Shown piece after piece: positions 5,494 to 19,463 of a stretch of 64,000 bases of DNA. Both the position numbers and the translations under genes were made by a program. Within the stretch, counting starts at the first letter, position 1, and each line of letters opens with the position of its first letter. Below the pieces are notes generated by a model that had not been told where the DNA came from, did not search any database, and worked only from the letters and a program-made list of their open reading frames with translations. The DNA comes from Methylomonas sp. UP202 (GTDB taxonomy: Bacteria > Pseudomonadota > Gammaproteobacteria > Methylococcales > Methylomonadaceae), in the NCBI RefSeq assembly GCF_029910655.1, contig NZ_CP123897.1, positions 3,089,547 through 3,153,546 on the forward strand, read 5' to 3'.

Positions 5494-5562
5494 CTACCCC
5501 TGCGGGATGATTCTATCCCGCCAGGGTTGAATCGGTCGTCAGGGGTCTCATCGGAGATCATC
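5494..5562 (+). promoter_or_regulatory. Leader with nested hairpins before the DUF4942 gene
   Basis: An outer stem ACCCCTG/CAGGGGT encloses a perfect seven-base inner hairpin, GCGGGAT-gattct-ATCCCGC. The ribosome binding site GGAG follows, eight bases ahead of the ATG at 5563. This is the clearest member of the leader series. Confidence 0.5.
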
Positions 5563-6888
5563 ATGATAGACAATCATCAGTATTACCCAACGCCTGAAAC
5601 GTTAAGTATCAAGGCTTGGGAAACCTTCAAAAACCGGCAGTTCGTTCGTGTATTGGAACCCTCTGCGGGCGAAGGCCATTTATTAAAACCTCGACCTTTC
5701 AAACACTGGCAGAAAATTCCGGTCGATTGCATTGAAATCGATATCAGCAAACACCCTATCTTGCGTTCGCAGGGCTATTCGGTGGTGGGCATGGATTTTA
5801 TGCAGTTCAAAAGCGGCAGCCTGTATTCGCATGTGTTGATGAATCCCCCGTTTGCCGACGGCGCACAGCATGTGCTGAAGGCGTGGGAGATTTTATTCGA
5901 CGGTGAGATCGTAGCCATACTCAATGCCGAAACCTTGAAAAACCCGTTCTCCAAGGAACGAAAGCATTTGCTCCGATTGATTGAGCAGTTTGGCGAAGTC
6001 GAATACTTGTCGGCGATGTTTGCCGGCCAGGATGCCGAGCGCAAAACGGATGTGGAAATCGCACTGGTCTGGCTGAAAAAAACCTCAACGTTCGAAGAGG
6101 AGCTGTTAGGCAACATCCTCGATGACTTACGTCGCGATCAAGTGAGCGCCGAGCGTTTGGCCGGCGATGGCCAGCCCATCCATGAACTGGCGTTAGCCAA
6201 TGCCTTTATCGACAATGCGGTGCTGATGTTCAATGCCGCCGTCGAAGCGGCCCGGCAATCGGCATTTAGCGAGGCCCGTGCCATGCGCTATCGCAAAATG
6301 CTGGGGCAAACCCTCGGTGAATTGAATGGCGATGCGGCGGTCAAGTCCACGCAGTCCACGCTGGATTGGGTGAAGAATCAGCTTTATACCGATTACAGCG
6401 ACCTGAAAGATCGTGCCTGGTCCGGTATTTTGCGTTCCACGCAAGTCACCTCGCGGTTGTCGTCAGCGGCGCAAAAACGGCTGGAGTCGGATTTCGAGAC
6501 GATTAAGTCACTGGAATTCACCGTACCTAATATCTACGGTTTTTTACAGGGCATCATCGACCAGCAAGGCGATATTCAGCTGAGCATGGTCTGCGATGTA
6601 TTCGACCTGATCACTCGTTATCACAGTGACAATACCGTCTTTTACATGGGCTGGAAGTCCAACGATAAGCATCGCACGCTGGGCATGCGTATCAAAACCA
6701 CCCGCTTTGTCATTCCGGGTCATGCCACCGAATCGTATCAAAACGATTTGTCGTGGGAATCCCAACGGATGCTGGCGGATTTTGACAAAGTGTTTGCAAT
6801 TTATACGAAGCGCAACACTTGCCAAATATCCCAATACAGCATAGGCCGGGGTTTAGAGTTAATCAAGCGTTCTAAACACTTGCCTTAA
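5563..6888 (+). pseudogene. DUF4942 methyltransferase gene, 5' part, interrupted by the GInt at 6797/6798
   Basis: The N-terminal part is a Rossmann-type methyltransferase-like domain (LEPSAGEGHLL near residues 28-38, MNPPFADGA near 100), followed by the beginning of the DUF4942 domain. Real coding ends at 6797; the remaining 30 codons to TAA at 6886 come from the inserted element. The 3' part resumes at 18,935. Joining 5563-6797 to 18,935-19,463 gives one uninterrupted frame of 1,764 bases (587 residues) with the sequence VFA-MLDGK across the junction, as expected for an intact family member. The ATG at 5563 is preferred to the TTG at 5527 because GGAG lies eight bases ahead. Such proteins are putative adenine-type DNA methyltransferases common on plasmids and integrative elements. 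The truncated product lacks most of DUF4942 and is probably non-functional. Confidence 0.85.
6788..6884. repeat. GInt left-end recombinase-site repeats
   Basis: AAGTGTT in the host gene (6788-6794) faces AACACTTGCC (6814-6823) inside the element with a 19-base spacer that contains the junction. A second exact copy of AACACTTGCC lies at 6875-6884, in the same orientation. The inverted partner GGCAAGTGTT is at 18,904-18,913 at the other end. Tyrosine recombinases usually bind such inverted arms around the crossover, so these are candidate Gin protein sites; that role is inference. Confidence 0.6.
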
Positions 6889-7164
6889 AATTTTTGTAAT
6901 ATTTTCCGGCAGGTACTCGCCTAAATTAGACGATAACCCTGTCGACTCACGGTCTCAAAGAAATTTATTGATGAATTCGCAAGACAAATTCAGCGTAAAA
7001 GTAAGACAGTTTCAGCGCGGATAGCTGTAACGGCTTGCATTGTTACACCTTAGTTTGGAGTGCCCGTATTTGAAAAACACCGTCAAGATGAAGCTCGGCC
7101 AGAATCTAAGTATAATTGAAGCAACTCAATATCCAATGTTTTCAGCATAGTTCATAGCGCCGTT
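6885..7164. other. Non-coding A/T-rich end of the GInt
   Basis: No gene is seen between the end of the broken DUF4942 frame and the methyltransferase start. The stretch is rich in A/T runs and fits the short non-coding end described for GInts. It must also hold the promoter of the methyltransferase gene, but no strong promoter hexamers stand out. Confidence 0.5.
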
Positions 7165-8457
7165 ATGGAGTCAACTTTCATCACCAATCCCTCCTCTAGT
7201 TTCCAACGATGGACTAAGGGACGCGCTATCTCCACTATGGGCACCAATGCCGGCGCTGAAATATTACCTTTCCAGTCTTGGCGGCATTTCAAAGAAGCAT
7301 TTGCTCCTGAGTTAATAGAGAGAGCAGTCAGCCAAACATCGGGAAGCATTAAGCATATCGTCGATCCTTTCGGGGGTTCCGGAACTACTGCTCTAGCCGC
7401 TCAATTTCTTGGCATCAAGCCTACTACAATTGAGGTTAACCCTTTTTTAGCGGATTTGATAGAGGCAAAAATTTGTCATCTTGACGTCGATAACGCTGCA
7501 GCTGAATTTGCCCGCGTCGTTGAGCGTGCGTCTAACGAGCCCGGGCCGAAATTGCCAGTTTTTGACGGGGCTCCGGCGACTTTTGTGGAGCCGGGAGAAA
7601 ATGACCGCTATATTTTTTCACAGCCGATTGCTCGGCGATTTCTTGCGTATCGGTCTGCGATTGATGAAGTAAAGAACGACGCCTGCCGCAGATTGTTTCG
7701 CGTTGTTTTGGCCGCAACAGCAATTCCAGTCAGCAATGTTATGATTAGCGGCAAAGGACGTCGATATCGTAAAAATTGGCAGGCACGCTTAGTCGCCCCA
7801 AACAACGTAGACAATTTGTTTAAGGAAGGGGTGTTACAAGCTATTTACGATCTTCGTCGATTCGCCTCTCGGCCGTGCCTTGAATACTGCCTGTTACGAG
7901 GCGACGCGCGTAACTTAGCGGGCACCGTAGGCAACCACGATTTAGCCATCTTTTCACCGCCTTATCCCAATTCTTTTGATTATACGGATGTATACAATGT
8001 TGAGCTTTGGTCGTTGGGCTATCTGAACAGCAGAGAAGCAAACACAAGTCTGCGTCAATCCACTCTTAGAAGCCATGTTCAAATTCTCCGTGACTGGAGC
8101 CATAGCGGGCTTAAAAGCAACACTCTTGCAGCAACGATAGACTCACTCCAACAAATCCGAGAGAAACTTTGGAATCGACATATCCCTGAGATGATAGGGG
8201 CTTATGCCGATGACATGGCAACCGTTTTATCGCAACTTGCACTCGGGCTCAGGACCGGCGGGCGAGTTTATATGGTGGTTGGCGATAGTCGATATGCCGG
8301 AATTGATGTTCCTGTAGCTCAAATCCTCGATGAAATCAGTTCATCGTTTGGTTATAAAACTAAAGAATTGGAGCCTTGTCGATCAATGCGCGCCTCGCCT
8401 CAGCAAGGTGGACGGCAGGAATTACCAGAAACATTGGTCGTATTGGAACGCCGTTAG
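7165..8457 (+). CDS. Amino-DNA methyltransferase (N4-cytosine/N6-adenine type), GInt cargo
   Basis: A 430-residue protein with the two hallmark motifs of exocyclic-amino DNA methyltransferases: the AdoMet-binding DPFGGSGTT at residues 67-75 (motif I) with acidic E90 in IEVNPF after it, and the catalytic SPPY at about 264-267 (motif IV). The motif I-then-IV order and the Ser in SPPY are common in N4-cytosine enzymes, but the modified base cannot be fixed from sequence. The middle region is probably the target-recognition part. It converges on the nuclease-like gene and overlaps it by four bases, which ties it to the three-gene operon at 8,454-12,272. It may methylate self-DNA to protect it from the linked nuclease; this is inference. 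No clear ribosome binding site is seen ahead of the ATG. Confidence 0.85.
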   Translation: MESTFITNPSSSFQRWTKGRAISTMGTNAGAEILPFQSWRHFKEAFAPELIERAVSQTSGSIKHIVDPFGGSGTTALAAQFLGIKPTTIEVNPFLADLIEAKICHLDVDNAAAEFARVVERASNEPGPKLPVFDGAPATFVEPGENDRYIFSQPIARRFLAYRSAIDEVKNDACRRLFRVVLAATAIPVSNVMISGKGRRYRKNWQARLVAPNNVDNLFKEGVLQAIYDLRRFASRPCLEYCLLRGDARNLAGTVGNHDLAIFSPPYPNSFDYTDVYNVELWSLGYLNSREANTSLRQSTLRSHVQILRDWSHSGLKSNTLAATIDSLQQIREKLWNRHIPEMIGAYADDMATVLSQLALGLRTGGRVYMVVGDSRYAGIDVPVAQILDEISSSFGYKTKELEPCRSMRASPQQGGRQELPETLVVLERR

Positions 8458-9554
8458 ACACCTGTAAACCCTGCTTTTCTGGCATCATCCGAACTACCAA
8501 ATAAAGGTCGAACGTTGTATGCAGAAATCGGAGAGCATTTTGTAAGAGCGGTAACCACTTCCGTTCTCTCCATTAGGTTTTCTAGTTTATCTTGCCGCAA
8601 GTCAAATACCTCTAAAAGCCCTTCCTCTGCCTCCCGATTAGCTTTAAAAGCCCATGTTTGTTCAATTCCTTTAATAAGTGCTTCGATGTTAGCTTTACTA
8701 CTAACTGTTGTTGGAGTTTTTCCGATCGACGCATTCGCAAATGACTTAATAATCTTAAGCTCAATAATAGCCCAATAACTAAGAGCACCGTGCTCACTGC
8801 TCTTTTTTAACAATCGTACATCAATGCGCCCGATGCTCGTGGAATCTTCAGTTTCGGCTTTGACTATGCCGTGAAACCAATGATTAAGTGCTAATGTAAG
8901 ATTAGCCTGAATTGACTTTTCTGGCTGCGGTCCGGGAACGTAGCTATTCGCACGCTTCGACTCCCAAACTCCGCTTGCGCCACATGAAGGTGTAAGCAAA
9001 TGATGAATATGAAAATAATTTAGGGCGTCTAATAATTCATTTATAGTCGCTGTCGGCGGGGTATCTCGAATCGGGTCTAACCGGGCTGCATCATTAGCTC
9101 CAGATGGGCGCGTAGCCATAACTTTTTTCGTTCGATATACGATCACTATCGGGCAATCGGAAAGATTATTGTCGCAAAGCCATTCCAATATTGAATTTGA
9201 GTTCTTTACTGGTAAAGACATAAAGCGTCCGCGCGAAGCATCTAGACTACCAAAAAAAATACGGCCTAAGAGTGGCTCATTTGTGGCAACGAGATCGGCA
9301 AATGGTTCGTTGGCGCCTAGCTTTTGTCCTACTGCTCGTGGATGATCTACCATAACGAAAACAGCTTCATCCTGATGATCATCTTCATCTAACCAGCCAT
9401 TTTGCGCACGACCTTCCACAATAGACCTCACGGCCTGAGCAAAGCGAGCACTTTCATCGGCTTGTAGATTGGGTAAAGAGGGAAGATATCCAATAACAGA
9501 GGCTAGAGTTTGGTCATCTACTCCGGAGATTTGCCCGAGCGAATTATGCGGCAT
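8454..9554 (-). CDS. PD-(D/E)XK nuclease-like protein, putative defence effector
   Basis: A 366-residue protein. The C-terminal third has the pattern of a PD-(D/E)XK nuclease core: a helix (IQANLTLALNHWF), then GRIDVRLL with D245, then a strand ending IELK with E265 and K267, then a conserved-looking helix (KGIEQTWAF). The N-terminal 200 residues are unrecognised. It is the last gene of the operon and overlaps the middle gene by 11 bases. In Lamassu / ABC-three-component systems the effector (LmuA-like) is often a nuclease encoded beside the SMC-like ATPase, which fits. Alternatively it is a restriction enzyme for the convergent methyltransferase. Assignment rests on motif reading only. Confidence 0.6.
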   Translation of the reverse strand: MPHNSLGQISGVDDQTLASVIGYLPSLPNLQADESARFAQAVRSIVEGRAQNGWLDEDDHQDEAVFVMVDHPRAVGQKLGANEPFADLVATNEPLLGRIFFGSLDASRGRFMSLPVKNSNSILEWLCDNNLSDCPIVIVYRTKKVMATRPSGANDAARLDPIRDTPPTATINELLDALNYFHIHHLLTPSCGASGVWESKRANSYVPGPQPEKSIQANLTLALNHWFHGIVKAETEDSTSIGRIDVRLLKKSSEHGALSYWAIIELKIIKSFANASIGKTPTTVSSKANIEALIKGIEQTWAFKANREAEEGLLEVFDLRQDKLENLMERTEVVTALTKCSPISAYNVRPLFGSSDDARKAGFTGV

Positions 9555-10245
9555 CCATTACCTTCCCAAGATAGGTTGCATATAAAAAAAGTTTTTCACC
9601 CGGTCGAAGCGAAGAACTTTGCGGAAGAAAATTCTGGAAGCGTTGAGCTGTTAATACACTTAGGTTTGTGTCAGTGCCCCACTCGCCAAAATCAATGACA
9701 TTATTTAAAGCACCTCCGCTCCTATATGTAACGTCGGCCGCTACAGCTGCGTCAAGTTGGTCATCAGCCAATGTCGCCAAAGCGCAAGCGAGTTCAACGA
9801 GAAATGCATGGAGATTATAGTCACCATAATCAATGGCTTTATCAGCATCGCCGCCCCCAATTGCATTCAAGATAGGCTCCAAGAATTTAGAGGAAAAATT
9901 TAATCCATATTCTCCGTCAATACGAGCACCATCGTTCCCGCGATCAATATATTTCAAGTTGCTAATTTCAACCAAGCCAAGCACTACCAACCTATCTAAT
10001 TCAGATTGTAAATCAGGGTAGTGGGGACCTCCTTCGGATTTATATATCTTGCCGTCAAAAGGCACAAGATCCCACACCGGACTAAGCACATTGGCCAAAT
10101 AAGCAAAGGCGTGAAGACGAGAAGAGCGCAATGGAGCAATGCCGGCCCGTTCCGCCGCATCAAGTAAAAGTAATACTCGAGCGCGCTGTTTAAGCTGAGA
10201 AAGCTCAATGTTGCCGAGATTATTTTTAACCTGCTGATCAATCAC
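9544..10245 (-). CDS. Middle component-like protein of an ABC-three-component (Lamassu-like) system
   Basis: A 233-residue, soluble, mostly helical protein of no recognised catalytic family. Size, position between an SMC-like ATPase and a nuclease-like protein, and translational coupling (ATGA overlap with the ATPase gene, 11-base overlap with the nuclease gene) match the 'middle component' (LmuC-like) of ABC-three-component systems, which bridges ATPase and effector. The N-terminal half looks like a winged-helix-type fold (RLHAFAYLANVL, DLQSELDRLVVLGLVEIS), also typical of such middle components. The identification depends mainly on context. Confidence 0.5.
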   Translation of the reverse strand: MIDQQVKNNLGNIELSQLKQRARVLLLLDAAERAGIAPLRSSRLHAFAYLANVLSPVWDLVPFDGKIYKSEGGPHYPDLQSELDRLVVLGLVEISNLKYIDRGNDGARIDGEYGLNFSSKFLEPILNAIGGGDADKAIDYGDYNLHAFLVELACALATLADDQLDAAVAADVTYRSGGALNNVIDFGEWGTDTNLSVLTAQRFQNFLPQSSSLRPGEKLFLYATYLGKVMDAA

Positions 10246-12272
10246 GAATTGGCACCCGAAATTGCAGAAAGAAGCAGACGGTGGTACTTCTCTCTATCTT
10301 GAAGCAATGCCCGATTGGGTGCAGCAATGCTGAGAAGATTGAGTACGCGATGTAATCGTTCATCATTTTCTGACTCAATTTTTACCGGACCACCAAATAG
10401 TGAGGTTATCAAACCAGTGTTACTCAAATTACTAGTAACAATCAAACGATTATCATCGGTAGACGCAAACCTAGCAAGTGCACATCCAACTCTTTCCATC
10501 GCCACCCCATCTAAGCTTGCCTCAGGTGTTTCCATAACAAATGTGCATGCTCCATCACTTGTAGCAACCTTAACCAACGCCAAACGAAACGCCAAATCTA
10601 CCAGTTCACGTTGCGACTCTGACACATCAGAGGGATTATTACGCCGTACATAGCTGGGATGATTTGCAGCAGTCATTTCTGCAGCATATGCCGGAACCCT
10701 GATTCCATCCTCTCTACGTCCGCCTTGCATATAAGTCGATGTCAATGTTTCTTGTACAAGGCGGGCATCCTCTGCAATTAATTCTTTTATTAAACTCGCA
10801 AAGGTTTGCACGAGCTTGTCAGATTGGGCCGTAATCAGACCTTCTTTACTAGCAAAAAATTGCCTCAAATTTTGATAATGCTCCGCACGTTTCGCATCCC
10901 ACTCATTTTTCTCTCCTCGCAAAGCCTCCAAAGCAATTTCATACTTTTGGCTAGTCATAGAAGACGGTAATTGAGCGCGAAGACCTTTGGTTTTTCGCGT
11001 GCGTTCTTCCACGGCGGAACGTAATTGCACTATCTTCGCAAGAGTCTTCTCGTATCCTTCTTTGGCAGAATGCAACTGCTCTAAGCGCGCGTCTTCTTCT
11101 TGTCTCGTCAACTCGGCCAACTCCCTGGCTCGATCAAGATTAGCTTGTTCGAATTCATGTTGGGCAACTATATTCGCCTGCCTAGCCGGTTCAGCACCAC
11201 ATGAAGGACAACAACCATGAGCAATGAGCATTTCCAATTCAGCCCGTTTTGCAGATGCCTCAGCGTTGCAAACCAAACAACGATTCTCCGTCATAATTCG
11301 GGACACAACCAACCTCGCCGCGTCATCCATACTCGGAAAAAGCCGTAATAGCGCAGTGTACTTCAAGCGCTCAATAGCACTATTCGCTTCTTCGCGTTTC
11401 AGCTTTGCCCGTTCATGTTCTAGCCGGAATTGCTGGCGAAAGGTATCCAGGTCGGACAATTCGCTTTCGAGCGAGACGATTTCTTCAAGATCTGCTTCAA
11501 GTAGTTTTTGTTCTACCTCAAGATGAGCCAAAACTCCTTGTGAACCTGCCTCACGTTGCCTAGCTCTATTCAGTTCTTTTTCGGTTGAATTCGCTTGCCA
11601 TTGAATATTCCGAAATTTACTATCAGCGCTCTCAACATTCCGCTCTAATTCAGCAAGCTTATTAGCATCATTAGGCGCTAAAAATAGGGCCCGAAGAATA
11701 TGTCGCTGAGCATTCTTATCCCAAAGTGCTCCGGGGCGATCTTCATGAAATAGCACAACATGATGTAGCAAGAGCAAAACATCGACAAAACTACCAACAA
11801 CCATGAGTTCCGAAATTATATTTTGGAATTCTTTTTCGGAATCATCCTTGCTCGGATATGATGGAATTGGAATGTCGTCACGCAGACAAGAAACCAAAGA
11901 CAAGTCATTCAATCGTCTTGTAACAGTTAGCGTTGTAACGCCAAACAAAGCAGATAGCGTTACAGTGGCATCTTTTGCACCATCAGCCACCCGTTGAGCA
12001 AAAAAACTTTTTGCTTGGGGCGTCAATGGCACTGGCTTTTCTTGCTGAACAGAACCCTGTTGATATCCGGGACCGGTTCCAGTTAAGTCGTAAGGCCCAG
12101 TAAGAGACCGTAAAATCATGTTTAAAAGCGTAGTCTTACCAAGGCCGTTAATTCCTGCGATTAGGCTTAGCCCTGACTGAAAACTCCAGTCAATTCCACT
12201 GCCATGTGGTTCTCCAGGAAACAAACCATAATTTGAAACCTTAAGAGCTGTAAAAACTGGAAGTCTAATCAT
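10242..12272 (-). CDS. SMC/Rad50-like ABC ATPase with double-CxxC hook, putative defence sensor
   Basis: A 676-residue ABC ATPase. Walker A is GINGLGKTT (residues 40-48). Two coiled-coil arms flank a central hook with two CxxC pairs, C332/C335 and C355/C358, which could bind zinc within one chain. The ABC signature is SESQRELVDLAF (about 551-562), Walker B CTFVMETPEASLD (about 576-588) with catalytic glutamate and D-loop. The switch-histidine position reads TSNLSN, without His. In SMC-like defence ATPases (Lamassu LmuB, DdmC, other ABC-three-component systems) such proteins sense foreign DNA structures and release a nuclease partner. First gene of a three-gene operon with four- and 11-base overlaps. 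Its base composition is visibly more A/T-rich than that of the flanking chromosome. Confidence 0.8.
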   Translation of the reverse strand: MIRLPVFTALKVSNYGLFPGEPHGSGIDWSFQSGLSLIAGINGLGKTTLLNMILRSLTGPYDLTGTGPGYQQGSVQQEKPVPLTPQAKSFFAQRVADGAKDATVTLSALFGVTTLTVTRRLNDLSLVSCLRDDIPIPSYPSKDDSEKEFQNIISELMVVGSFVDVLLLLHHVVLFHEDRPGALWDKNAQRHILRALFLAPNDANKLAELERNVESADSKFRNIQWQANSTEKELNRARQREAGSQGVLAHLEVEQKLLEADLEEIVSLESELSDLDTFRQQFRLEHERAKLKREEANSAIERLKYTALLRLFPSMDDAARLVVSRIMTENRCLVCNAEASAKRAELEMLIAHGCCPSCGAEPARQANIVAQHEFEQANLDRARELAELTRQEEDARLEQLHSAKEGYEKTLAKIVQLRSAVEERTRKTKGLRAQLPSSMTSQKYEIALEALRGEKNEWDAKRAEHYQNLRQFFASKEGLITAQSDKLVQTFASLIKELIAEDARLVQETLTSTYMQGGRREDGIRVPAYAAEMTAANHPSYVRRNNPSDVSESQRELVDLAFRLALVKVATSDGACTFVMETPEASLDGVAMERVGCALARFASTDDNRLIVTSNLSNTGLITSLFGGPVKIESENDERLHRVLNLLSIAAPNRALLQDREKYHRLLLSAISGANS

Positions 12273-12731
12273 GACGCGGCAAATATTCCAAGATTATTCT
12301 GCAAAAACACAAATAAATTTTTTCCAATTCAAGGTGCATTTAAGTCATAGCGATAAAACGGCTAAGCCATTAAGTATCTGGCTTTCGATTACCGAAATAC
12401 GAAACCACAATTGCGTTTCACTATCAACCTAACAATACTCATCAATTCAGGAATGAAACATTACCGTTCGATTGACTACGGTTACAACCGTTTCATCTCT
12501 CCATTGGCCCAATTGTAGTCTCTTCAAAACATCATACTCAAGACCTGGCTCGCATTGCCATCAACCTATTATGAAATCGAGATGCCCAAGGCGGTATGGA
12601 ATCAGACTGTAAACGGCCTTTACTAGCTACTGCTCTTCTTTACGATAATTGATTAACTTAATATGTTCCATTTTGCATATCGTCGGTGACAGATAACTAT
12701 GGCTTGTAATAATCAAATTTCTGTCATTCAA
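12273..12731. other. 459-base intergenic region between GInt cargo and ginD
   Basis: No gene is seen. The A/T-rich stretch must carry the promoter of the minus-strand ATPase-nuclease operon and the end of the gin transcript. No terminator hairpin or promoter stands out clearly enough to name. Confidence 0.4.
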
Positions 12732-13217
12732 TCAGAGCTTTCCTTTCGGGATGGGGGCAACATTGCTTCGCGCACCACCTCGCATCTGCTCCAGCAGGGC
12801 ATCGTAGTCGTGACGCAACTTCTCATACTCGGCCTGGAGTTGCTGCAACTGAAGTTCAGTGACAATGTGCCGGTTCTGTAAGGCGTCGTGTTTTTCCTTC
12901 CAGCCCTCGGCGCGCTGCTGGTGAGTCTTGCGCACACGCATGCGCCCAACCGTCTCCTTCTTCTTGAGCGTTTCCAGCCAAAGCGAAGCGCGCACCTTGA
13001 GCGCGACGTTATCCTTTTTGTAGAAAGTCGCCTCGTTGATCCCTGCACGACGCGCGATTTCGGCCATTGACACCGCCCCCCCGTTTTGGGGATAAATTCC
13101 GCCGTTGACCTGCATTTCATCGCTGATCGCACGAATCGCCTCCTCCACGCGTTGCAAGGTCTTCGCGGTCCTGTCTGCGCCGCGCCTAAGGGCGGCTACC
13201 TTGTGACGCTCGCTCAT
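12732..13217 (-). CDS. ginD: GInt accessory protein GinD, HTH plus coiled coil
   Basis: A 161-residue protein with a helix-turn-helix-like segment SMAEIARRAGINEATFYKKD (about residues 50-69), which resembles TetR/KfrA-type HTHs, followed by a long coiled coil (about 100-145, heptads rich in Gln/Leu/Glu). Its start overlaps the end of the preceding recombinase gene by ATGA. In GInts the fourth gene of the operon codes for a small helical protein required with the three recombinases for integration and excision; the similar arrangement in Tn554 has TnpC. DNA binding as an architectural or directionality factor is inferred. Confidence 0.75.
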   Translation of the reverse strand: MSERHKVAALRRGADRTAKTLQRVEEAIRAISDEMQVNGGIYPQNGGAVSMAEIARRAGINEATFYKKDNVALKVRASLWLETLKKKETVGRMRVRKTHQQRAEGWKEKHDALQNRHIVTELQLQQLQAEYEKLRHDYDALLEQMRGGARSNVAPIPKGKL

Positions 13218-15361
13218 GCAGCCCCCTCCACTTCAGTCTCCTCGCACAGCGCGAACAGGGATTGAACATCGGGGTCGGCTAGGTACTTCTCTTTCAGGTC
13301 TGCGAAGTTTTCCAGTTCTTCCCGCAAGTTGCCCACTACGCCGGCCAGCACCAGCAATTGACCGTCGTCCCGAGCTTGGCGGGCAATATCCAAGTACCGC
13401 TCAATGATCTGCTCGCTGTCCCGGCGCCGCCGCTTGAGCACGATGCGATTGTCGCACTCATGCTGGCAGTTGGCTGTGTTGGGCTCCCCCTTGGAGCGTT
13501 TTTTCTGGCACAGACCGTCCTCGCCCGGTGCCTTGGAGCAAACGATGTTTTCCTGGATTAGACGCCAGCCTTGACCCTGAGCGGTGAGGAGATAGGCTAG
13601 ATCATAAGCTGAACCATCATCCCAAACGCGCCCGGATTGCTTCAAGTGGTCTTCCTCGTTGCGGACGGTTGTCACCAGGCGCGCAGCACCGGGGCCACCA
13701 TTTCCCGGGAGCGGGAGGCCGTCGCGCAGGGCCTGGTGGATTTCTTCAAGCGCTTCTGCGCAGTGCATGATGCGCAGCTCGCGCAATACCTTCTCGGCTT
13801 CCTCACGTACACCATGATCGCAGAGGATGTAATGCAATGTCATCTCGATGCTTTTGTGACCAAACAGGCGCTTAAGCACCAATGGCGAATTGAAGAGAGC
13901 GATGCCAGCCAATCGACCAATCGTCTTTCGAAACCGGTGCGCGTGGAAGTTGCTCCCGCCGGGCTTGGGATTTACGTTTAGGCGTTTGGCTAAGGCGGTG
14001 AGTGCATCGTTAAAACCAAACTGGGCCTCTTCGCCAACAAGGCCGCCAATACCAATACTCACCCACATGGCGTTGCCAAATCGTGAGGTTTGGGGCAGTG
14101 CGTCCCCCGGCTTCCTAGGCAACCAGCCCATCGCCGCAGCAAGCCGCGCCTGCTGACCGAGACATTGGCTAAGGATCTCCGGAGCAGGCCACTGCCGAAC
14201 ATCACCGAAGAGATTGCCGGAAAGTTTATAGGTAAAGCCCTTCAAGTAGTCATTGCCGTTCCGACCGACCACCACACAATCACGCGCAAGATTGGCAATT
14301 TCCCCGATCCGCCCGGCGCTGGCGAGTAAGGTAATGAAGAGGTGAGAAGCCTGGAGAGTGGCGCACAAGATGACGATATGCTCCCAGGTTCTTGGCGGCC
14401 ACTCGTGGGTATCTGTGCTAAAACTGCCTAACGAGGTTGTCAGCGGGAATGGCGGCAAAAGGCGGGAGCCAGCTCGGTCTAGCCATTGATTATACTCCAG
14501 ATGCGATTGGATAAGTTGCGAAATACGCTTTTTTGCATTTAGTGGCACCCAGTTGATAGATTCCAAATCCAGCCGTAGCGTTTCAAGGAGGCGCGTTAAG
14601 TTGGGGCCCATATCCTGCACAACCCACAGCACCCTCGGACCGATCTCGGCAAGCCAGTCCTCGGGGAAAGGTAAAAACGACACCGGCTTCTTCTGAGGCG
14701 GGCGGGCGACGTTTTTTTGCGCGGGCGCGGTCGTCCGCCGCATATCCGGCAGGAGCGGTGCATCAGACCAGACACCCCGTGCAACCAGCGTGTTCAAACG
14801 AGACAGTTCGCTCCTTGTAAACCTTGCGGATTTGTCACTATTGAGTTTTAGCAAATCCGCCTCAGTTAGACATTGTAACAAGCCAACTGCGGCAGGATAA
14901 TCGGCTTTGCGCCGAATTGCCCGTGCGGTGATTTGCGGCCAATGCGAATAGAGAGTCGTTGTAATAGTGCTTGGTTTGAGACGCACAGCCTTGCCGAGCC
15001 CCGTCCCCCCTGAAGGAACAAGGCGCATGAGCAATGCGAGACGGGTGAGCACCAGCACTCCCATATCCACCAGAGGTTCCAAGGACACTACTGCAGGCTC
15101 CTCCTTCTCCAGGAAGTTGCGCAGGCGACGGGCCAAGTCGATGTCCCTTTGAGCTGATGACAAAATGTTTGGAGCAAGAGATTTTGGAGTCTGCCACCGG
15201 CCCCAGAAGTCGCCATGGCCAGAGAGCCTCTGGGCGAGGAGCAAATCCTGTGGCCCGAGATGCTGAATATCTTCGATCCGGAACCGTTGTAGGACAGCGA
15301 AACGCCCTTCTTCGACAAGATCAATAGAGTCGTACCTAGTTTGAGTTTCCGGCGCGTTCAT
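13214..15361 (-). CDS. ginC: Tyrosine recombinase GinC
   Basis: A 715-residue phage-integrase-type recombinase. Catalytic features are visible: Arg in ASAGRIGEIANL (about residue 351), HAHRFRK as the HxxR box (about 470), and GHKSIEMTLHYI with the nucleophilic Tyr (about 511). About 200 residues follow the catalytic domain, including a cysteine-rich stretch (CSKAPGEDGLC ... CQHEC) that may bind zinc. Third gene of the gin operon, with four-base ATGA overlaps on both sides. Size and order match GinC of GInts. It acts on the element ends with GinA and GinB. Confidence 0.8.
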   Translation of the reverse strand: MNAPETQTRYDSIDLVEEGRFAVLQRFRIEDIQHLGPQDLLLAQRLSGHGDFWGRWQTPKSLAPNILSSAQRDIDLARRLRNFLEKEEPAVVSLEPLVDMGVLVLTRLALLMRLVPSGGTGLGKAVRLKPSTITTTLYSHWPQITARAIRRKADYPAAVGLLQCLTEADLLKLNSDKSARFTRSELSRLNTLVARGVWSDAPLLPDMRRTTAPAQKNVARPPQKKPVSFLPFPEDWLAEIGPRVLWVVQDMGPNLTRLLETLRLDLESINWVPLNAKKRISQLIQSHLEYNQWLDRAGSRLLPPFPLTTSLGSFSTDTHEWPPRTWEHIVILCATLQASHLFITLLASAGRIGEIANLARDCVVVGRNGNDYLKGFTYKLSGNLFGDVRQWPAPEILSQCLGQQARLAAAMGWLPRKPGDALPQTSRFGNAMWVSIGIGGLVGEEAQFGFNDALTALAKRLNVNPKPGGSNFHAHRFRKTIGRLAGIALFNSPLVLKRLFGHKSIEMTLHYILCDHGVREEAEKVLRELRIMHCAEALEEIHQALRDGLPLPGNGGPGAARLVTTVRNEEDHLKQSGRVWDDGSAYDLAYLLTAQGQGWRLIQENIVCSKAPGEDGLCQKKRSKGEPNTANCQHECDNRIVLKRRRRDSEQIIERYLDIARQARDDGQLLVLAGVVGNLREELENFADLKEKYLADPDVQSLFALCEETEVEGAA

Positions 15362-17475
15362 GTTGTTTCCTCAAGTGCTGCGATAGAACCTAAACCGGGA
15401 ACAAGGTGCTCGTTTAATAAGATGCGCATTCGCCATTTTTCTCGTGCCTCGGCCACCCTTTCGGCCAAATAAAGACTGTCGAGAAGAGCTTCCCCTTCTT
15501 GCAGCTCCTCCAGAAAACCGCCCCTCAGCCATGTCTCGCGCGGCAGGTAATCAGACATTGCCAGCAACTCTTCCACGCGCATAGCGATGCCGTCCAAAGA
15601 CTCTGGCAAGAACCTAGCATTGGGGCAATCCTTGAGACAGCGCTGCGTTCCGCACAGACGACCTTCCACGTGCCCGGGTACGACATAGGCAGGAGGATGT
15701 CTAGGGTCGGCGCAGCCCACGCCGACCCGGCTACGCATGAGTTGGCGGTATTCAGTAAGTCGCGTCACCATGTCCGGCGTCAGCGTACCATTGCGCACGA
15801 GCTGCGCGAGAATAGTCAAATCTATTCTCCCAAGATCTAGTTGGGCGAACAGATGGGACATAAAACGCTGTGCATACTCGTCGTTCTCTGCGCTGAAAAT
15901 GTTATTATCTAGGTAACGGCTTGTACTGCTGAGGGAAGAGTGCCCCAGCGCGAACATCACAGAGATGATATTGCCGCCCGTCCGAAGATAGACCCACCGA
16001 GCATAGATGTCGCGGAGGTCTGAAGGCTGCAAGGGGGGGATTTCCGTCTTCCCCAACAGTCTTCGTTTGGTGTTGAGGCGCTCTATCACCAGTCCAAGGT
16101 AGGGAATGGAATTTGGTGATCCGCTACATACGAATCTAGTTAACCTCTGGTCATCAAGCCAGTTGATCGCCCCAACGCGGTCAATGTATAGCCACACGCT
16201 ACAACTGCCTTGCCGGAGTTCCTGAACGCGCTTTAGTTTCGCATTTATGACTTTCTGTTCCTCACCACCAGACTGCATGCAAGCAAGTTCCTTGCGGGCC
16301 GCCTCATAGTCTCGCTTCAGGATACTCCTAAGCAGCTTGACACGCTCCACGTAGGCTGCGACGATCATCGGTGCAGAGGAAGAATGCTTTCTCAGGCCGG
16401 TGCAGAACTGCGTTTTACCTCGAGCTCGAGGCTTTTCAGCCTGTATGGTGACCTCCTGGTCTTCCCTCTCGCTGGCCGATAGGACAAGCTGCTTATCGTC
16501 CTTGGGGTGATCGAAGATCAGGTCTGGCGTGCTTCCGTCGAGATTTACCATTGTGCTGGGATTCCAGCCACTGTTCATCAGTGCCAAATGGAATGCGATC
16601 TCGGCCTCCTCAGCTGTAGGGAACAAAATCCCCCGCATCAGGTTGCGTTCAAAACCTCGGTCTTTGAATTTCTGGCTGCGATCCCCATCCAAGATCTGAT
16701 CGCCAGTTGGCACGAGGTTGCCGGTCTCCAACTGAATTCGCTGGAAGTGCTGCCAGTTCAATAGTAGGCGCTCCCCCTCCACGCCAAAATTGCACGGATT
16801 TTCGCCAGCAGCGCGCCTCGCCGCCTCAGCGCGAATCGCGTCATTCCGCGCCCATGTATGCCTGACTCGCTCCCAGTCCTGTTTGATTGCGGTCTTGAGT
16901 TCGCGTGCCTGGTCCTCCGGGATCATGCATCGTACGGGATCACCATCCTTTGGGGGCGACCAAAGCAACATCGGCAGACGCAGCAGCCTTCGCGCGTCGA
17001 TGACGATGGAGAGGAAATTCTTGAATATGTACCCTTTCATTCCACTCTGATGAGCCGCTGCCTCGTGAAGTTCGTTGAGGTCAGCCAATGATGTCACCCG
17101 CGTGATCGACTGGTCATCCAGGACCGAGTCATTTTCGAGGCTGTCGAAGAGTCTCCACCAGGCGCGAAGAGCCACGGTGTAGTTTTTGACTGAAGTGGAA
17201 CTAATCAACGCGCAGCGTCCCTCGATCGCAGGCGCTAGTTCGGTGATCAGTTGAGGGCGACCGGTAAAGGGGCCAGCCCAAGTTCCCGCTCCCATTGGAT
17301 GCGGATTTTGAAATTCCCCGTCAGCAAACGGATGCAGATCGACGAGGGTGCTTTTTGTGGGATGGCTGGTCCAGAAGCGCAAAGGATCATCGCTTTTGGG
17401 CACAAGGATGGGAGTGACCAGAGTGGCGCCGGCATGTTCTTTCAGGTGATCCTTGTTTTTCTTATTGATGCTCAT
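15358..17475 (-). CDS. ginB: Tyrosine recombinase-like protein GinB, degenerate active site
   Basis: A 705-residue member of the phage-integrase fold. The C-terminal box ALGHSSLSSTSRYLD keeps His and Tyr (about residue 520). The first catalytic Arg is not evident: the corresponding segment reads SGWNPSTMVNLD (about 303). The HxxR box reads SDLR (about 485), with the His missing. A cysteine-rich tail (GRLCGTQRCLKDC) follows. It may therefore be a structural partner rather than an independent catalyst; large second recombinases of such trios often deviate like this. Overlaps ginA and ginC by ATGA. Reading of the active site is by eye and should be confirmed by alignment. Confidence 0.75.
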   Translation of the reverse strand: MSINKKNKDHLKEHAGATLVTPILVPKSDDPLRFWTSHPTKSTLVDLHPFADGEFQNPHPMGAGTWAGPFTGRPQLITELAPAIEGRCALISSTSVKNYTVALRAWWRLFDSLENDSVLDDQSITRVTSLADLNELHEAAAHQSGMKGYIFKNFLSIVIDARRLLRLPMLLWSPPKDGDPVRCMIPEDQARELKTAIKQDWERVRHTWARNDAIRAEAARRAAGENPCNFGVEGERLLLNWQHFQRIQLETGNLVPTGDQILDGDRSQKFKDRGFERNLMRGILFPTAEEAEIAFHLALMNSGWNPSTMVNLDGSTPDLIFDHPKDDKQLVLSASEREDQEVTIQAEKPRARGKTQFCTGLRKHSSSAPMIVAAYVERVKLLRSILKRDYEAARKELACMQSGGEEQKVINAKLKRVQELRQGSCSVWLYIDRVGAINWLDDQRLTRFVCSGSPNSIPYLGLVIERLNTKRRLLGKTEIPPLQPSDLRDIYARWVYLRTGGNIISVMFALGHSSLSSTSRYLDNNIFSAENDEYAQRFMSHLFAQLDLGRIDLTILAQLVRNGTLTPDMVTRLTEYRQLMRSRVGVGCADPRHPPAYVVPGHVEGRLCGTQRCLKDCPNARFLPESLDGIAMRVEELLAMSDYLPRETWLRGGFLEELQEGEALLDSLYLAERVAEAREKWRMRILLNEHLVPGLGSIAALEETT

Positions 17476-18854
17476 TCAGCATCTCCTGTTTCATTCAGCG
17501 CAACCCATTGACGAGATATGGTCAGCGAAACATGCAGCTTCGAGAATAGCCATTGTAAGTAGATTTCTGTCGTTCGGGCACTGTGATGGCGCAGTTGCGG
17601 ACGGATTTCCAGTTGGATGACTGTCTGCGCTGTGTCCCGCAGAGCCATCACCATAGGATGCTCGTAACTGACGATTGAAGTCTTGATGACTTGCTGAATC
17701 AAATCGGCATGCTGCTTCATGCGCTCCTCCAGATAGCGACATGCCCACCAATCGCGCCCCATGTGGGGACTCCAATGCTCCGGACCTTCAACATGGGTCC
17801 AGAAAGTGTAAATCTGATCACCAGAGTAGCGCTGGCCGGTACCAGGATGGATGAACAGATGTACGGCCTGCTGCAGGATGCGGCGTTGCGCATCGACCGT
17901 ACTTCCCTTCTTCAGTAACGGTTTCAGGGAGAGGACGCGTTCCTTGTGTCGATAGTCATGGATGCGATGCGCGATCCAGAGCGGAACATGGATGGTGCCT
18001 TGCGGCCCGATCTTATCGCCGTGCTCGTCGACCCCGTACTCCTTGCCCTTGGTGCCGTACTTGAGCTCGATGAGCACGCTCTGTACCTCTTCGGGCTGGT
18101 CGGGATTGACGATCCTCCATTCCTTGGGGTTAATTGGCAGAGTATCCACCCGCCAGCACGCCGCTTCTTCGCGACGTATGGCAGTGTTGAGAATCAGATC
18201 CACGATCAGTCCCTCGGTTACTCCAAAGATCGGGCGCTCATGCACACGCTTCCGCCAGGCCTCGATCTCCTCCTGCGAGGGAAACGACAGGGTGCGCTTA
18301 TTGACTTTGACCTTGCCCTTTCTGCATTGGACTGACTTAACCTCATGGGACTTGCTGTTGTCGTGCGAACCAGCAATATAGGTGGTCGTGATCGTTGGGA
18401 TGGTGAAAGGCTCGCGTAGCCCCTTGTCCGCCGCCCACATTTGGTACTCTAGGGCGATCTGAACCCGAGCATTGACTGTCTCAGGGGCTAGTGGGCGGTT
18501 GTCTGCCGACCAGAGGCCTTTCAGCATTTCCTTTTGATAGCGCCCAATGAGGACATTAGTGTAATCGGCTGCCATCAGATTGACGGCTCGCGTCTCGGCC
18601 CATTCCAAGGCGTTGGCGAGCCATCGCGCAAAGTTGAGCATGCTGATCCGGCTCGGTGGGATGGGATTTCTTTTCTTCCCACGTCCCTTGGGGTCCCAAT
18701 AGCCCAGGCCACGATCGATCAGGAATTGATTAGGGAGCCTGGCGTAGCCTGGTTCAGAGTCGAAGATGAAAGGCAGATTTGCGACCGCAGCAAAGCCCGC
18801 TCCTGTCAAGATTCTGTGGTCAGCGAAGACGACCTTGAAGCCGTAATCTGGCAT
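17472..18854 (-). CDS. ginA: Tyrosine recombinase GinA
   Basis: A 460-residue recombinase. Catalytic residues visible are R227 in TAIRREEA, H364 and R367 in HMGR, then LRHHSARTTEIYLQ with His423/424 and Tyr432. The start at 18,854 is chosen because GGAG lies eight bases upstream and the site is inside the element; the open frame extends upstream to 19,130 but that part lies in the split DUF4942 gene and cannot be native. First gene of the operon; its stop overlaps the ginB start by ATGA. The promoter must lie in the last 80 bases of the element, close to or overlapping the end repeat, so recombinase binding could repress transcription (inference). Confidence 0.8.
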   Translation of the reverse strand: MPDYGFKVVFADHRILTGAGFAAVANLPFIFDSEPGYARLPNQFLIDRGLGYWDPKGRGKKRNPIPPSRISMLNFARWLANALEWAETRAVNLMAADYTNVLIGRYQKEMLKGLWSADNRPLAPETVNARVQIALEYQMWAADKGLREPFTIPTITTTYIAGSHDNSKSHEVKSVQCRKGKVKVNKRTLSFPSQEEIEAWRKRVHERPIFGVTEGLIVDLILNTAIRREEAACWRVDTLPINPKEWRIVNPDQPEEVQSVLIELKYGTKGKEYGVDEHGDKIGPQGTIHVPLWIAHRIHDYRHKERVLSLKPLLKKGSTVDAQRRILQQAVHLFIHPGTGQRYSGDQIYTFWTHVEGPEHWSPHMGRDWWACRYLEERMKQHADLIQQVIKTSIVSYEHPMVMALRDTAQTVIQLEIRPQLRHHSARTTEIYLQWLFSKLHVSLTISRQWVALNETGDAE

Positions 18855-18934
18855 GTAAAATTCTCCGTTTGTATACTTGCAGATTGTATCGATATTGTTT
18901 ATCGGCAAGTGTTTTTGTGAACTCAGGATAATGC
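18855..18934 (-). promoter_or_regulatory. GInt right end: ginA promoter region and end repeat
   Basis: This 80-base end holds GGCAAGTGTT (18,904-18,913), the exact inverted partner of AACACTTGCC at the left end, a related ATACTTGC (18,873-18,880), and a small CGATA/TATCG hairpin. Just outside, the host gene carries GGCAAGTAT (18,945-18,953), an imperfect direct copy. AAGTGTTT (18,907-18,914) is repeated at the left flank (6788-6795). The ginA ribosome binding site GGAG is at its inner edge. Joined to the left end in a circle, the two ten-base arms would face each other across 37 bases. Confidence 0.55.
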
Positions 18935-19463
18935 GATGCTGGATGGCAAGTATGAAGCGGCTGTAGGGCTGGAGTCGGTTTTCCGAAATCACTTCCATGC
19001 CCTGCGAACCGGGCAACGGATTAGCGGCAGCTATTTTGATGTTCGCTACTATCCGGGCGTGGGCACGATTCATTTCTTCCCCAGCAATAAAACGCTGATT
19101 GATCGGATGAATCGTCTGGTTGGCAATCATCGTCGTTGGCTACCACCTGCGGAGACCAATGCAGGAACTGGTTTTTGGCAGCAGTTCGACCAAGCGGAAA
19201 AGCTCGATAAGGCCTTCCGTACCGAAGTCAGTAAAGACTGTAAACGGGATGGCCGGTATTATCACTTTGATCCATTTTGGGCGATCAAATACGGCGGTGA
19301 ATCCGAACGTGAGCGAGGCCATACCCTGCTAACCCAGGCCATGAGCACTGTACTAGCAAATCATGGCATTGATCCCGATAGCTTGTTGGATAGCGATCAA
19401 AACGGTGTCCGCCAATTGGATTGGGATGGCCTGCCTGATAGTCATTTGGCTTTTGCTTCATAG
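18935..19463 (+). pseudogene. DUF4942 methyltransferase gene, 3' part
   Basis: This is the rest of the gene that starts at 5563. The frame continues as MLDGKYEAA from 18,936 and runs to the stop at 19,463 with the DUF4942 C-terminal region (for example YFDVRYYPGVGTIHFFP). No ribosome binding site precedes the ATG at 18,936, which is an internal Met codon of the original gene. It is probably silent unless the GInt excises. Confidence 0.85.

Follow-up and report, generated by a model that had tools for sequence, protein, structure and literature searches.

The 64,000-nucleotide stretch of Methylomonas sp. UP202 DNA analyzed here (the window) carries a compact set of four genes that we read, with a probability of about 0.6, as an ATP-dependent, restriction-modification-like defense system built on an SMC-like ATPase. 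This reading builds on gene content, motifs, two predicted folds, conserved linkage of the genes, correlated divergence of their products and the presence in some loci of one methyltransferase beside two modules. The methyltransferase gene converges tail to tail with an operon on the reverse strand (8454-12272), in which the ATPase, a middle protein and a nuclease are transcribed in that order with all frames overlapping (Table 1). The overlap is 4 bp between methyltransferase and nuclease, 11 bp between nuclease and middle protein, and 4 bp between middle protein and ATPase; the positions, the four-base overlap of methyltransferase and nuclease and the convergent orientation are as the earlier note had described them. 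Conserved motifs, together with two confident structure models (nuclease and middle protein), rule out an artifact of ORF calling. No further ORF of at least 60 aa was found in 12150-12760. A 65-aa ORF lies antisense at 7152-7349.

Table 1 Features of the four-gene locus and of the island that carries it (positions in the window)
Feature	Position	Strand	Remark
DNA methyltransferase	7165-8457	+	430 aa
RecB-like PD-(D/E)XK nuclease	8454-9554	-	366 aa
Middle protein	9544-10245	-	233 aa, GTG start
SMC/Rad50-like ABC ATPase, LmuB-like	10242-12272	-	676 aa
GInt-like island	~6803..18934		approximate extent; break read by eye against an intact DUF4942 gene
ginD-like	12732-13217	-	assigned by position
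ginC-like	13214-15361	-	weak Phage_integrase match below cut-off
ginB-like	15358-17475	-	weak Phage_integrase match below cut-off
ginA-like	17472-19130	-	assigned by position; no Pfam match

The methyltransferase displays motif I (DPFGGSGTT) at residues 67-75 and a catalytic SPPY motif at residues 264-267, and it matches PADLOC MTase_II (PDLC03224, 3.5e-44) and PF01555 (5.9e-9). In the latter match, residues 34-99 correspond to profile positions 159-219, so that the enzyme's N-terminus aligns with the C-terminal portion of PF01555, which identifies the enzyme as circularly permuted. The motif rule presumably places it in the cytosine-N4 type, and the modified base is therefore probably cytosine N4. 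A target-recognition domain was not identified.

The ATPase contains a Walker A motif, a SESQ signature and a coiled-coil region that bears two CxxC pairs (C332, C335, C355 and C358), which supports the proposed SMC-like protein with coiled coils and a hook-like cysteine apex, as read from motifs. The LmuB model of PADLOC (PDLC03859) matches 30 of 31 ATPase members (best 1.8e-22) and is the best PADLOC match of the window ATPase (5e-9); weaker coverage was obtained with mad3 (26/31, best 3.3e-10), PbeC (PDLC02747; 20/31, best 1.2e-10) and PDLC02730 (15/31, best 3e-12). The mad3 and mad8 matches in the window are confined to the P-loop region. Three ATPase relatives from outside the family profile score 205-636 bits against it and other ABC/AAA proteins at most 33 bits, a gap that assigns the family to a clade of its own despite the LmuB match. 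Among PHROGs, the window proteins matched methyltransferase, SbcC-like and unknown families, with zero matches for the nuclease or the middle protein.

The nuclease consists of an unassigned N-terminal domain (residues ~1-205) and a C-terminal nuclease core (~211-319) with the motif GRxD...ELK...QxxxF/Y. Asp245, Glu265, Lys267 and Gln299 are invariant in an alignment of 34 members, and Glu212, Glu236, Gly242 and Arg243 are nearly so. The predicted structure (pLDDT 89.7) shows the order H-E-E-E-H-E at 211-319, as read from the DSSP string; motif residues and model thus bear out the suggested PD-(D/E)XK fold. Of the folds that had been expected from structure prediction, the nuclease core was modeled, whereas the ATPase head and hook are read from motifs. 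PDDEXK_9 matches 23 of 32 nuclease members (best 6.3e-5; window weak, 0.014), none of the 32 matches a PADLOC model or a Pfam model of ABC-three-component (ABC-3C) C-terminal domains, and the libraries searched gave no match to a solved fold. The middle protein is predicted to be helical with a single two-strand hairpin (pLDDT 91.8). Foldseek against solved structures returned nothing for it at E 1e-3 or better, none of 31 members matched the Pfam MC families, and there was no DndE match in PADLOC or Pfam; the same Pfam library does pick up MC4 and MComp1 in the Lamassu-like loci retrieved. In PADLOC, which may hold no LmuC model, the only match was a chance one to MTase_II, and hhalign against one MC4-type LmuC gave E 0.0044 at a probability of 8% over 71 columns, so that a distant relationship may still exist. 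Except for the weak PDDEXK_9 match, the middle protein and the nuclease belong to families without a model or solved fold in the libraries searched.

The four genes are almost always found together. Among the matches listed, the ATPase led to 42 loci, counting the window, and 36 of these have the methyltransferase (26/31, 6/7, L010, L012, L013 and the window), which played no part in finding them. Of the six loci without it, three end at contig ends (L030, L035 and L075), two have truncated ATPases (L041 and L042) and one lies outside the family (L044); none of the 42 loci listed has intact ATPase, middle and nuclease frames, sequence on both sides, and yet no methyltransferase. Searching in reverse, two of 72,556 plasmid records carry a methyltransferase of >40% identity, and these are the same two that carry the ATPase, while among 398 genomes no match was better than 1e-34 besides the methyltransferase profile's own five members. 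Linked loci vary in arrangement (convergent, upstream or same strand) and include ATPases only 20-24% identical. The set occurs in records labeled Pseudomonadota, Myxococcota, Thermodesulfobacteriota, Actinomycetota and Chloroflexota, several of which are metagenome bins, and this recurrence in several phyla puts the locus beyond chance. Linkage of this extent rules out a chance neighborhood, and it upholds the earlier note on the dedicated methyltransferase and on the four genes as a conserved unit; the contrary pattern that the note had named, relatives never linked to a methyltransferase, did not arise. Decay is seen in L013, which retains an open methyltransferase frame beside a frameshifted ATPase and has no recognizable nuclease, and in L042, which has lost the methyltransferase together with the leading part of the ATPase.

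The divergence of the four proteins is correlated. For 24 single-module loci, Mantel r is 0.91 for ATPase and nuclease, 0.86 for ATPase and middle protein, and 0.77 for ATPase and methyltransferase, values that shared descent can also give; with L023 included the last one drops to 0.55. The trees have several groups in common. Three loci (L012, L020 and L031) contain two modules each, with ATPases 24-27% identical and one methyltransferase in the stretch read. Conversely, one unlinked close relative of the methyltransferase was found on a phage-like contig beside a KaiC-like gene (L086), and the methyltransferase of L038 groups away from the clade of its ATPase partner. The orphan and the swapped partner are what would be expected if the methyltransferase were a passenger, or a separate orphan enzyme merely adjoining a nuclease operon; this is highly improbable given linkage in the large majority of loci, in several arrangements and across distant ATPases. 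As points against the restriction-modification reading we note L086, L038 and the diverged methyltransferases of L023 and L039 (26% and 24% identity to that of the window).

Eight of 29 loci have a small HTH gene that diverges from the methyltransferase gene. All eight match HTH-type Pfam models, only those of L020 and L024 above a cut-off. Controller genes occupy such a position in some restriction-modification loci; the window locus has no controller gene.

The earlier note had filed the operon with Lamassu/ABC-3C systems. The assignment is not supported in that form. Of the four proteins only the ATPase resembles its Lamassu counterpart, LmuB; it is similar in size to the SMC/Rad50-like ATPases of these systems and likewise equipped with a cysteine apex, and a small middle protein, overlapping genes and an effector that can be a PD-(D/E)XK nuclease are shared features as well (PMC10586767). 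However, in the window and its relatives the operon starts with the ATPase gene and ends with the nuclease gene, whereas the effector gene comes first in those three of five fetched LmuB-model loci whose order could be read (L068, L069 and L071). The nuclease domain is C-terminal here, in contrast to LmuA, where the effector domain is N-terminal and a docking domain C-terminal, as in the control L069 (hydrolase N-terminal, CTD8 C-terminal). Each ATPase chain has two CxxC pairs, no ABC-3C middle-component or C-terminal-domain Pfam model is matched, and a dedicated methyltransferase is present. An ordinary Lamassu system is thus rejected on three defining features (middle component, LmuA architecture and gene order), and on our best reading the system works partly like Lamassu rather than being a proven member. 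In searches for ABC-3C middle components, Pfam MC4 was matched in none of 299 genomes, where no control matched either, and MC2 in 1 of 185; an MC4-type protein matched one plasmid record and no viral contig.

The same likeness would allow Lamassu-like abortive infection, in which the ATPase complex senses aberrant phage or plasmid DNA structures, the nuclease attacks all DNA and the role of the methyltransferase is limited to raising the threshold or protecting the host chromosome. We keep DNA-structure sensing, which the earlier note had suggested, only as part of this alternative. The reach of the LmuB model across the family and the three-part layout with a middle gene are in line with this, and Lamassu is described as structure-sensing and abortive in PMC10586767. 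We consider abortive infection unlikely, since neither the middle protein nor the nuclease has a match beyond chance among PADLOC or ABC-3C Pfam models, the five fetched LmuB-model loci have no relative of the window methyltransferase within the 6-9 kb read, and retention of the methyltransferase suggests that the mark is central.

The nearest precedent is provided by methylase-coupled CxC-type ABC ATPase/DndE systems (PbeABCD-like), some of which, according to PMC10853773, have cytosine-5 or permuted cytosine-N4 methylases. They share with the present set a cysteine-hook ABC ATPase paired with DNA methylation in place of phosphorothioation, and a permuted N4 methylase. Unlike them, the four genes here lack DndE, an HKD-helicase nuclease and a disordered small protein, and the nuclease is RecB-like; DndE has two ribbon-helix-helix domains, whereas the middle protein is predicted to be helical apart from its hairpin. 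PbeC was found in 1 of 143 genomes and DndD in 3 of 143, numbers insufficient for building a tree of the ABC clades.

Classical restriction-modification systems (Types I-III) keep methyltransferase and nuclease as a unit of adjacent genes with an optional HTH gene, as do the loci described here, but the four genes here encode neither a helicase/translocase nor a specificity subunit and have an SMC-like ABC ATPase in their place. DISARM, BREX and MADS are multi-gene systems linked to methylation and likewise tie it to a multi-protein defense complex; of their markers, the four window proteins show none besides the mad3/mad8 P-loop matches. A more specific proposal, which we put forward tentatively and at somewhat less than even odds, is that the loci represent a separate class of ATP-dependent restriction-modification, where the place of the helicase motor is taken by a double-CxxC, zinc-apex SMC-like ATPase and an ATPase-middle-nuclease complex would read a permuted cytosine-N4 mark. 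A single mark might then serve to license more than one diverged complex, as the two-module loci L012, L020 and L031 suggest. No earlier description of the four-gene set was recognized from titles and abstract openings in the literature searched, a search outside which the main ABC-3C survey lies (Krishnan 2020, doi 10.1093/nar/gkaa726). As a concept, pairing an ABC ATPase with a methylase is not entirely novel (PMC10853773).

The four genes make up the entire cargo, as had been proposed, of a GInt-like island, which interrupts a DUF4942 gene. This gene is intact in Methylomonas koyamae pLM6 (L055) and is represented in the window by two pieces lying apart, where blastn covers 5596-6723 and 19015-19379; the break at ~6803/18934 was read by eye from translations. 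The annotated ginA start at 19130 overlaps the split gene, hence the true start is probably lower. A GInt was taken to have a ginABCD operon with three tyrosine recombinases, cargo adjoining ginD, and flanking imperfect direct repeats of 10-17 nt. The layout agrees with that of GInts in PMC5385486, and the target gene is split; two of the three recombinase candidates match Phage_integrase, both below the cut-off, and comparison of 6501-7165 with 18701-19200 revealed no exact repeat of at least 10 nt and no 16-mer with three or fewer mismatches. The gin-like operon (12732-19130) is the vehicle and lies outside the four-gene system.

Relatives also sit on plasmids and viral contigs; the latter were found in a profile scan, whereas a scan with the single window ATPase gave no match, and a phage record collection yielded no match to the ATPase (E limit 1e-5) or the methyltransferase (1e-10). 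Such mobility, and the report in PMC5385486 that GInt cargo includes restriction-modification modules which may help fixation, would suit a selfish addiction module, where loss of the island lets methylation fade, the nuclease attacks the chromosome and defense is a side effect. As any restriction-modification system could act in this way, defense is still compatible, and selfishness as the main role appears improbable.

In the restriction-modification-like reading that we prefer, the methyltransferase would mark host DNA, probably at cytosine N4 within a specific sequence. The SMC-like ATPase may dimerize via its coiled coil and cysteine apex and hold DNA or travel along it, the middle protein would bridge ATPase and nuclease, and the ATPase would license the RecB-like PD-(D/E)XK nuclease to cut DNA without the mark. 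Modified base, complex formation, cutting of unmodified DNA and defense are what we infer from the locus. Transfer of the block as one cargo means that the nuclease arrives with its own protection.

How a DNA-scanning ATPase leaves the chromosome of its own cell untouched is a question raised by Lamassu-type SMC-like systems. A branch tied to a dedicated methyltransferase offers one answer that is specific and open to testing, and would connect SMC-like defense to classical restriction.

ORF reading of the window returned the four genes exactly at the positions proposed in the earlier note, and the coordinates bear out the 4-bp tail-to-tail overlap of the methyltransferase and nuclease genes as well as the overlaps within the operon (11 bp between the nuclease and middle genes, 4 bp between the middle and ATPase genes).

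Genes of the methyltransferase-operon set with coordinates in the window
Gene	Position	Strand
Methyltransferase gene	7165-8457	+
Nuclease gene	8454-9554	-
ATPase gene (operon)	10242-12272	-

The methyltransferase carries DPFGGSGTT (motif I) close to its N-terminus and SPPY, generally taken as a cytosine-N4 signature, at 264-267. Pfam PF01555 aligns by its C-terminal part with the N-terminus of the enzyme, i.e., the protein is circularly permuted. The nuclease has the pattern GRxD...ELK...QxxxF/Y, and its assignment as a PD-(D/E)XK enzyme agrees with the predicted C-terminal core, which follows the H-E-E-E-H-E order of that fold (DSSP string read by eye). Predicted models of the nuclease and middle protein are confident (pLDDT 89.7 and 91.8), and neither has a Foldseek match among solved structures at E 0.001 or better (best E 0.083 and 0.074, respectively; low TM-scores). 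The highest-probability match listed for the middle protein, replication terminator protein (0.75, E 0.35), is not significant and would fit a winged-helix-like body. The ATPase combines Walker A and a SESQ signature with four cysteines, arranged as two CxxC pairs with a spacing of about 19 residues, that are invariant in 31/31 aligned members. Where a glutamate usually follows the acidic residue of Walker B, the ATPases have T, A, S or G; PMC10586767 reports glutamine at this position in Lamassu LmuB proteins in general.

Downstream of the four genes lie ginD, ginC, ginB and ginA candidates, assigned by placement; two have weak, sub-cut-off matches to Phage_integrase, and a Pfam search gave no such match for the ginA candidate. 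Direct repeats, with which GInts are reported in PMC5385486, were absent at the search settings used. The halves of an intact DUF4942 gene on Methylomonas koyamae plasmid pLM6 match window positions 5596-6723 and 19015-19379 (blastn), and the break, judged by eye, lies near 6803 and 18934, which gives an island of about 12.1 kb with the four genes as cargo. That they are its sole cargo holds, the two intergenic stretches checked containing one other ORF of at least 60 aa (65 aa, on the strand opposite the methyltransferase start). The split DUF4942 gene itself occupies 5527-6888 and 18936-19463; among plasmids, its best relatives belong to Methylomonas, e.g., pLM6, and the window may therefore contain an integrated plasmid-like element.

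Linkage was searched with the ATPase as seed, and the methyltransferase was not used as query. The ATPase is present in 5/299 genomes surveyed and the middle protein in 2/369, the window's own genome included in both, and two plasmid records match the ATPase. All of the first six relatives inspected have a methyltransferase relative nearby (43-57% identity). An ATPase-profile scan of genome contigs gave at least 31 loci, with all four genes in 26/31 of the matches listed, three of these 26 being members of the HMM training set (window, L008-L012, L013). Viral contigs gave seven loci, six with the methyltransferase, including some whose ATPases are just 20-24% identical; two of the viral loci, L077 and L079, have sequence in common and are probably copies of one element. 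With loci identical in place counted once (L014 = L008, L040 = L011, L043 = L009), the co-occurrence of the four genes that the earlier note had set as a check is found elsewhere, the methyltransferase being linked at 36/42 loci among the matches listed (both scans, L010, L012, L013 and the window). The six others comprise loci that end at contig ends (L030, whose ATPase is additionally split across two frames, L035 and L075), truncated ATPases (L041, L042) and a different AAA protein (L044); no intact operon with both flanks lacked the methyltransferase among the loci examined.

The overlap of methyltransferase and operon is exactly 4 bp in 10 of the 23 convergent loci measured (8/21 from relatives, plus the window and L010), the remainder lying between 26 bp of overlap and a 52-bp gap. 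Elsewhere the methyltransferase flanks the operon at its ATPase end (L011, L032, L038, L079) or comes after the nuclease gene in the same orientation (L023, L039, L073, L076, L078). This constant pairing despite varied layout argues for a functional tie. In L012, L020 and L031 two modules (ATPases 24-27% identical) have one common methyltransferase in the stretch read. In 8/29 loci inspected by eye (L008, L010, L012, L013, L020, L021, L024 and L033) a gene of 102-153 aa is divergent to the methyltransferase; it is absent at the window locus. Each of the eight has an HTH-type Pfam match with E no higher than 0.1, and those of L020 and L024 alone exceed a curated cut-off. In the proteins of L010, L012, L020, L021, L024 and L033 the C-terminal part shows, by eye, a W-D pattern with a G/N-A stretch after it, and these may represent a controller family.

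Searches in reverse, from the methyltransferase, gave ten profile matches at 1e-20 or better in 398 genomes. Five, near 1e-200, are the profile's own source genomes, all with the ATPase (from a survey covering 299 genomes, versus 398 here); the methyltransferase survey therefore shows the absence of unlinked close relatives and is not an independent success. For the other five (about 1e-30 to 1e-34), none of the remaining three proteins was matched within roughly 1.5 kb. Among 72,556 plasmids, identity to the window methyltransferase exceeds 40% in two records only, both ATPase-bearing. Four viral loci exceed 40%: L085 and L087, at the same places as L074 and L079, respectively, have the module, and L084 has a nuclease piece at its contig end. 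The sole clear exception is L086, a phage-like contig with a phage lysozyme gene, where the methyltransferase lacks the module and instead converges, overlapping by 9 bp, on the gene of a KaiC-like ATPase of 869 aa; this pair (6959-10855) may represent a further methylase-linked system or else an anti-restriction gene.

Over 24 single-module loci, two-module and incomplete loci being excluded, distances of the ATPase correlate with those of the nuclease (r 0.91), middle protein (r 0.86) and methyltransferase (r 0.77; p 0.0001 each, 9,999 permutations); the last falls to r 0.55 over 25 loci once L023, whose methyltransferase is an outlier, is added. The trees have in common the groups window, L008 and L027, and L021, L024 and L037, and L038 is swapped between them. 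In the first group, L008 belongs to Mesorhizobium and L027 bears a Myxococcota MAG label, which suggests co-transfer of the genes, unless the L027 contig is misbinned. As to decay, L013 (Azospirillum brasilense) has an open methyltransferase frame and a frameshifted ATPase, with a KAP-family NTPase gene (11774-13348) separating the broken module from the methyltransferase; no nuclease is recognised, a 300-aa ORF without Pfam match lying at its position. In L042 the methyltransferase and the ATPase front are gone, with the middle and nuclease frames retained. Small as these numbers are, the apparent direction of decay is that which a nuclease-antidote pair predicts.

The proposed likeness to Lamassu and ABC-3C operons, the latter's Pfam names reportedly tracing to Krishnan 2020, stands for the ATPase, for which the LmuB model matches 30/31 members, but not for the middle protein, the nuclease, or the gene and domain orders, which are opposite to those of Lamassu-like operons such as L069. 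A family HMM sets the ATPase apart from other ABC proteins, and the middle protein and nuclease have no counterpart among PADLOC or ABC-3C Pfam models; as a control, the Pfam library labels a Lamassu-like operon (L069: middle protein MC4, C-terminal domain CTD8). Comparison with one MC4-type protein (hhalign E 0.0044, probability 8%) gives a weak hint of a distant tie of the middle protein, and three further profile comparisons match strongly in the ATPase P-loop region only. The set may thus resemble Lamassu in part of its working, as a candidate rather than an established member. Elsewhere in the host genome (G000:C1:4810894-4812369), outside the window, a long frame encodes a distant SMC-like protein (LmuB match 4e-22).

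The four genes would best be accounted for as a restriction-modification system in which the SMC-like ATPase acts as a DNA-handling motor. Among the literature searched, the nearest published idea (PMC10853773) couples CxC-type ABC ATPases and DndE to cytosine methylases; the methylase coupling is alike and the other parts differ.
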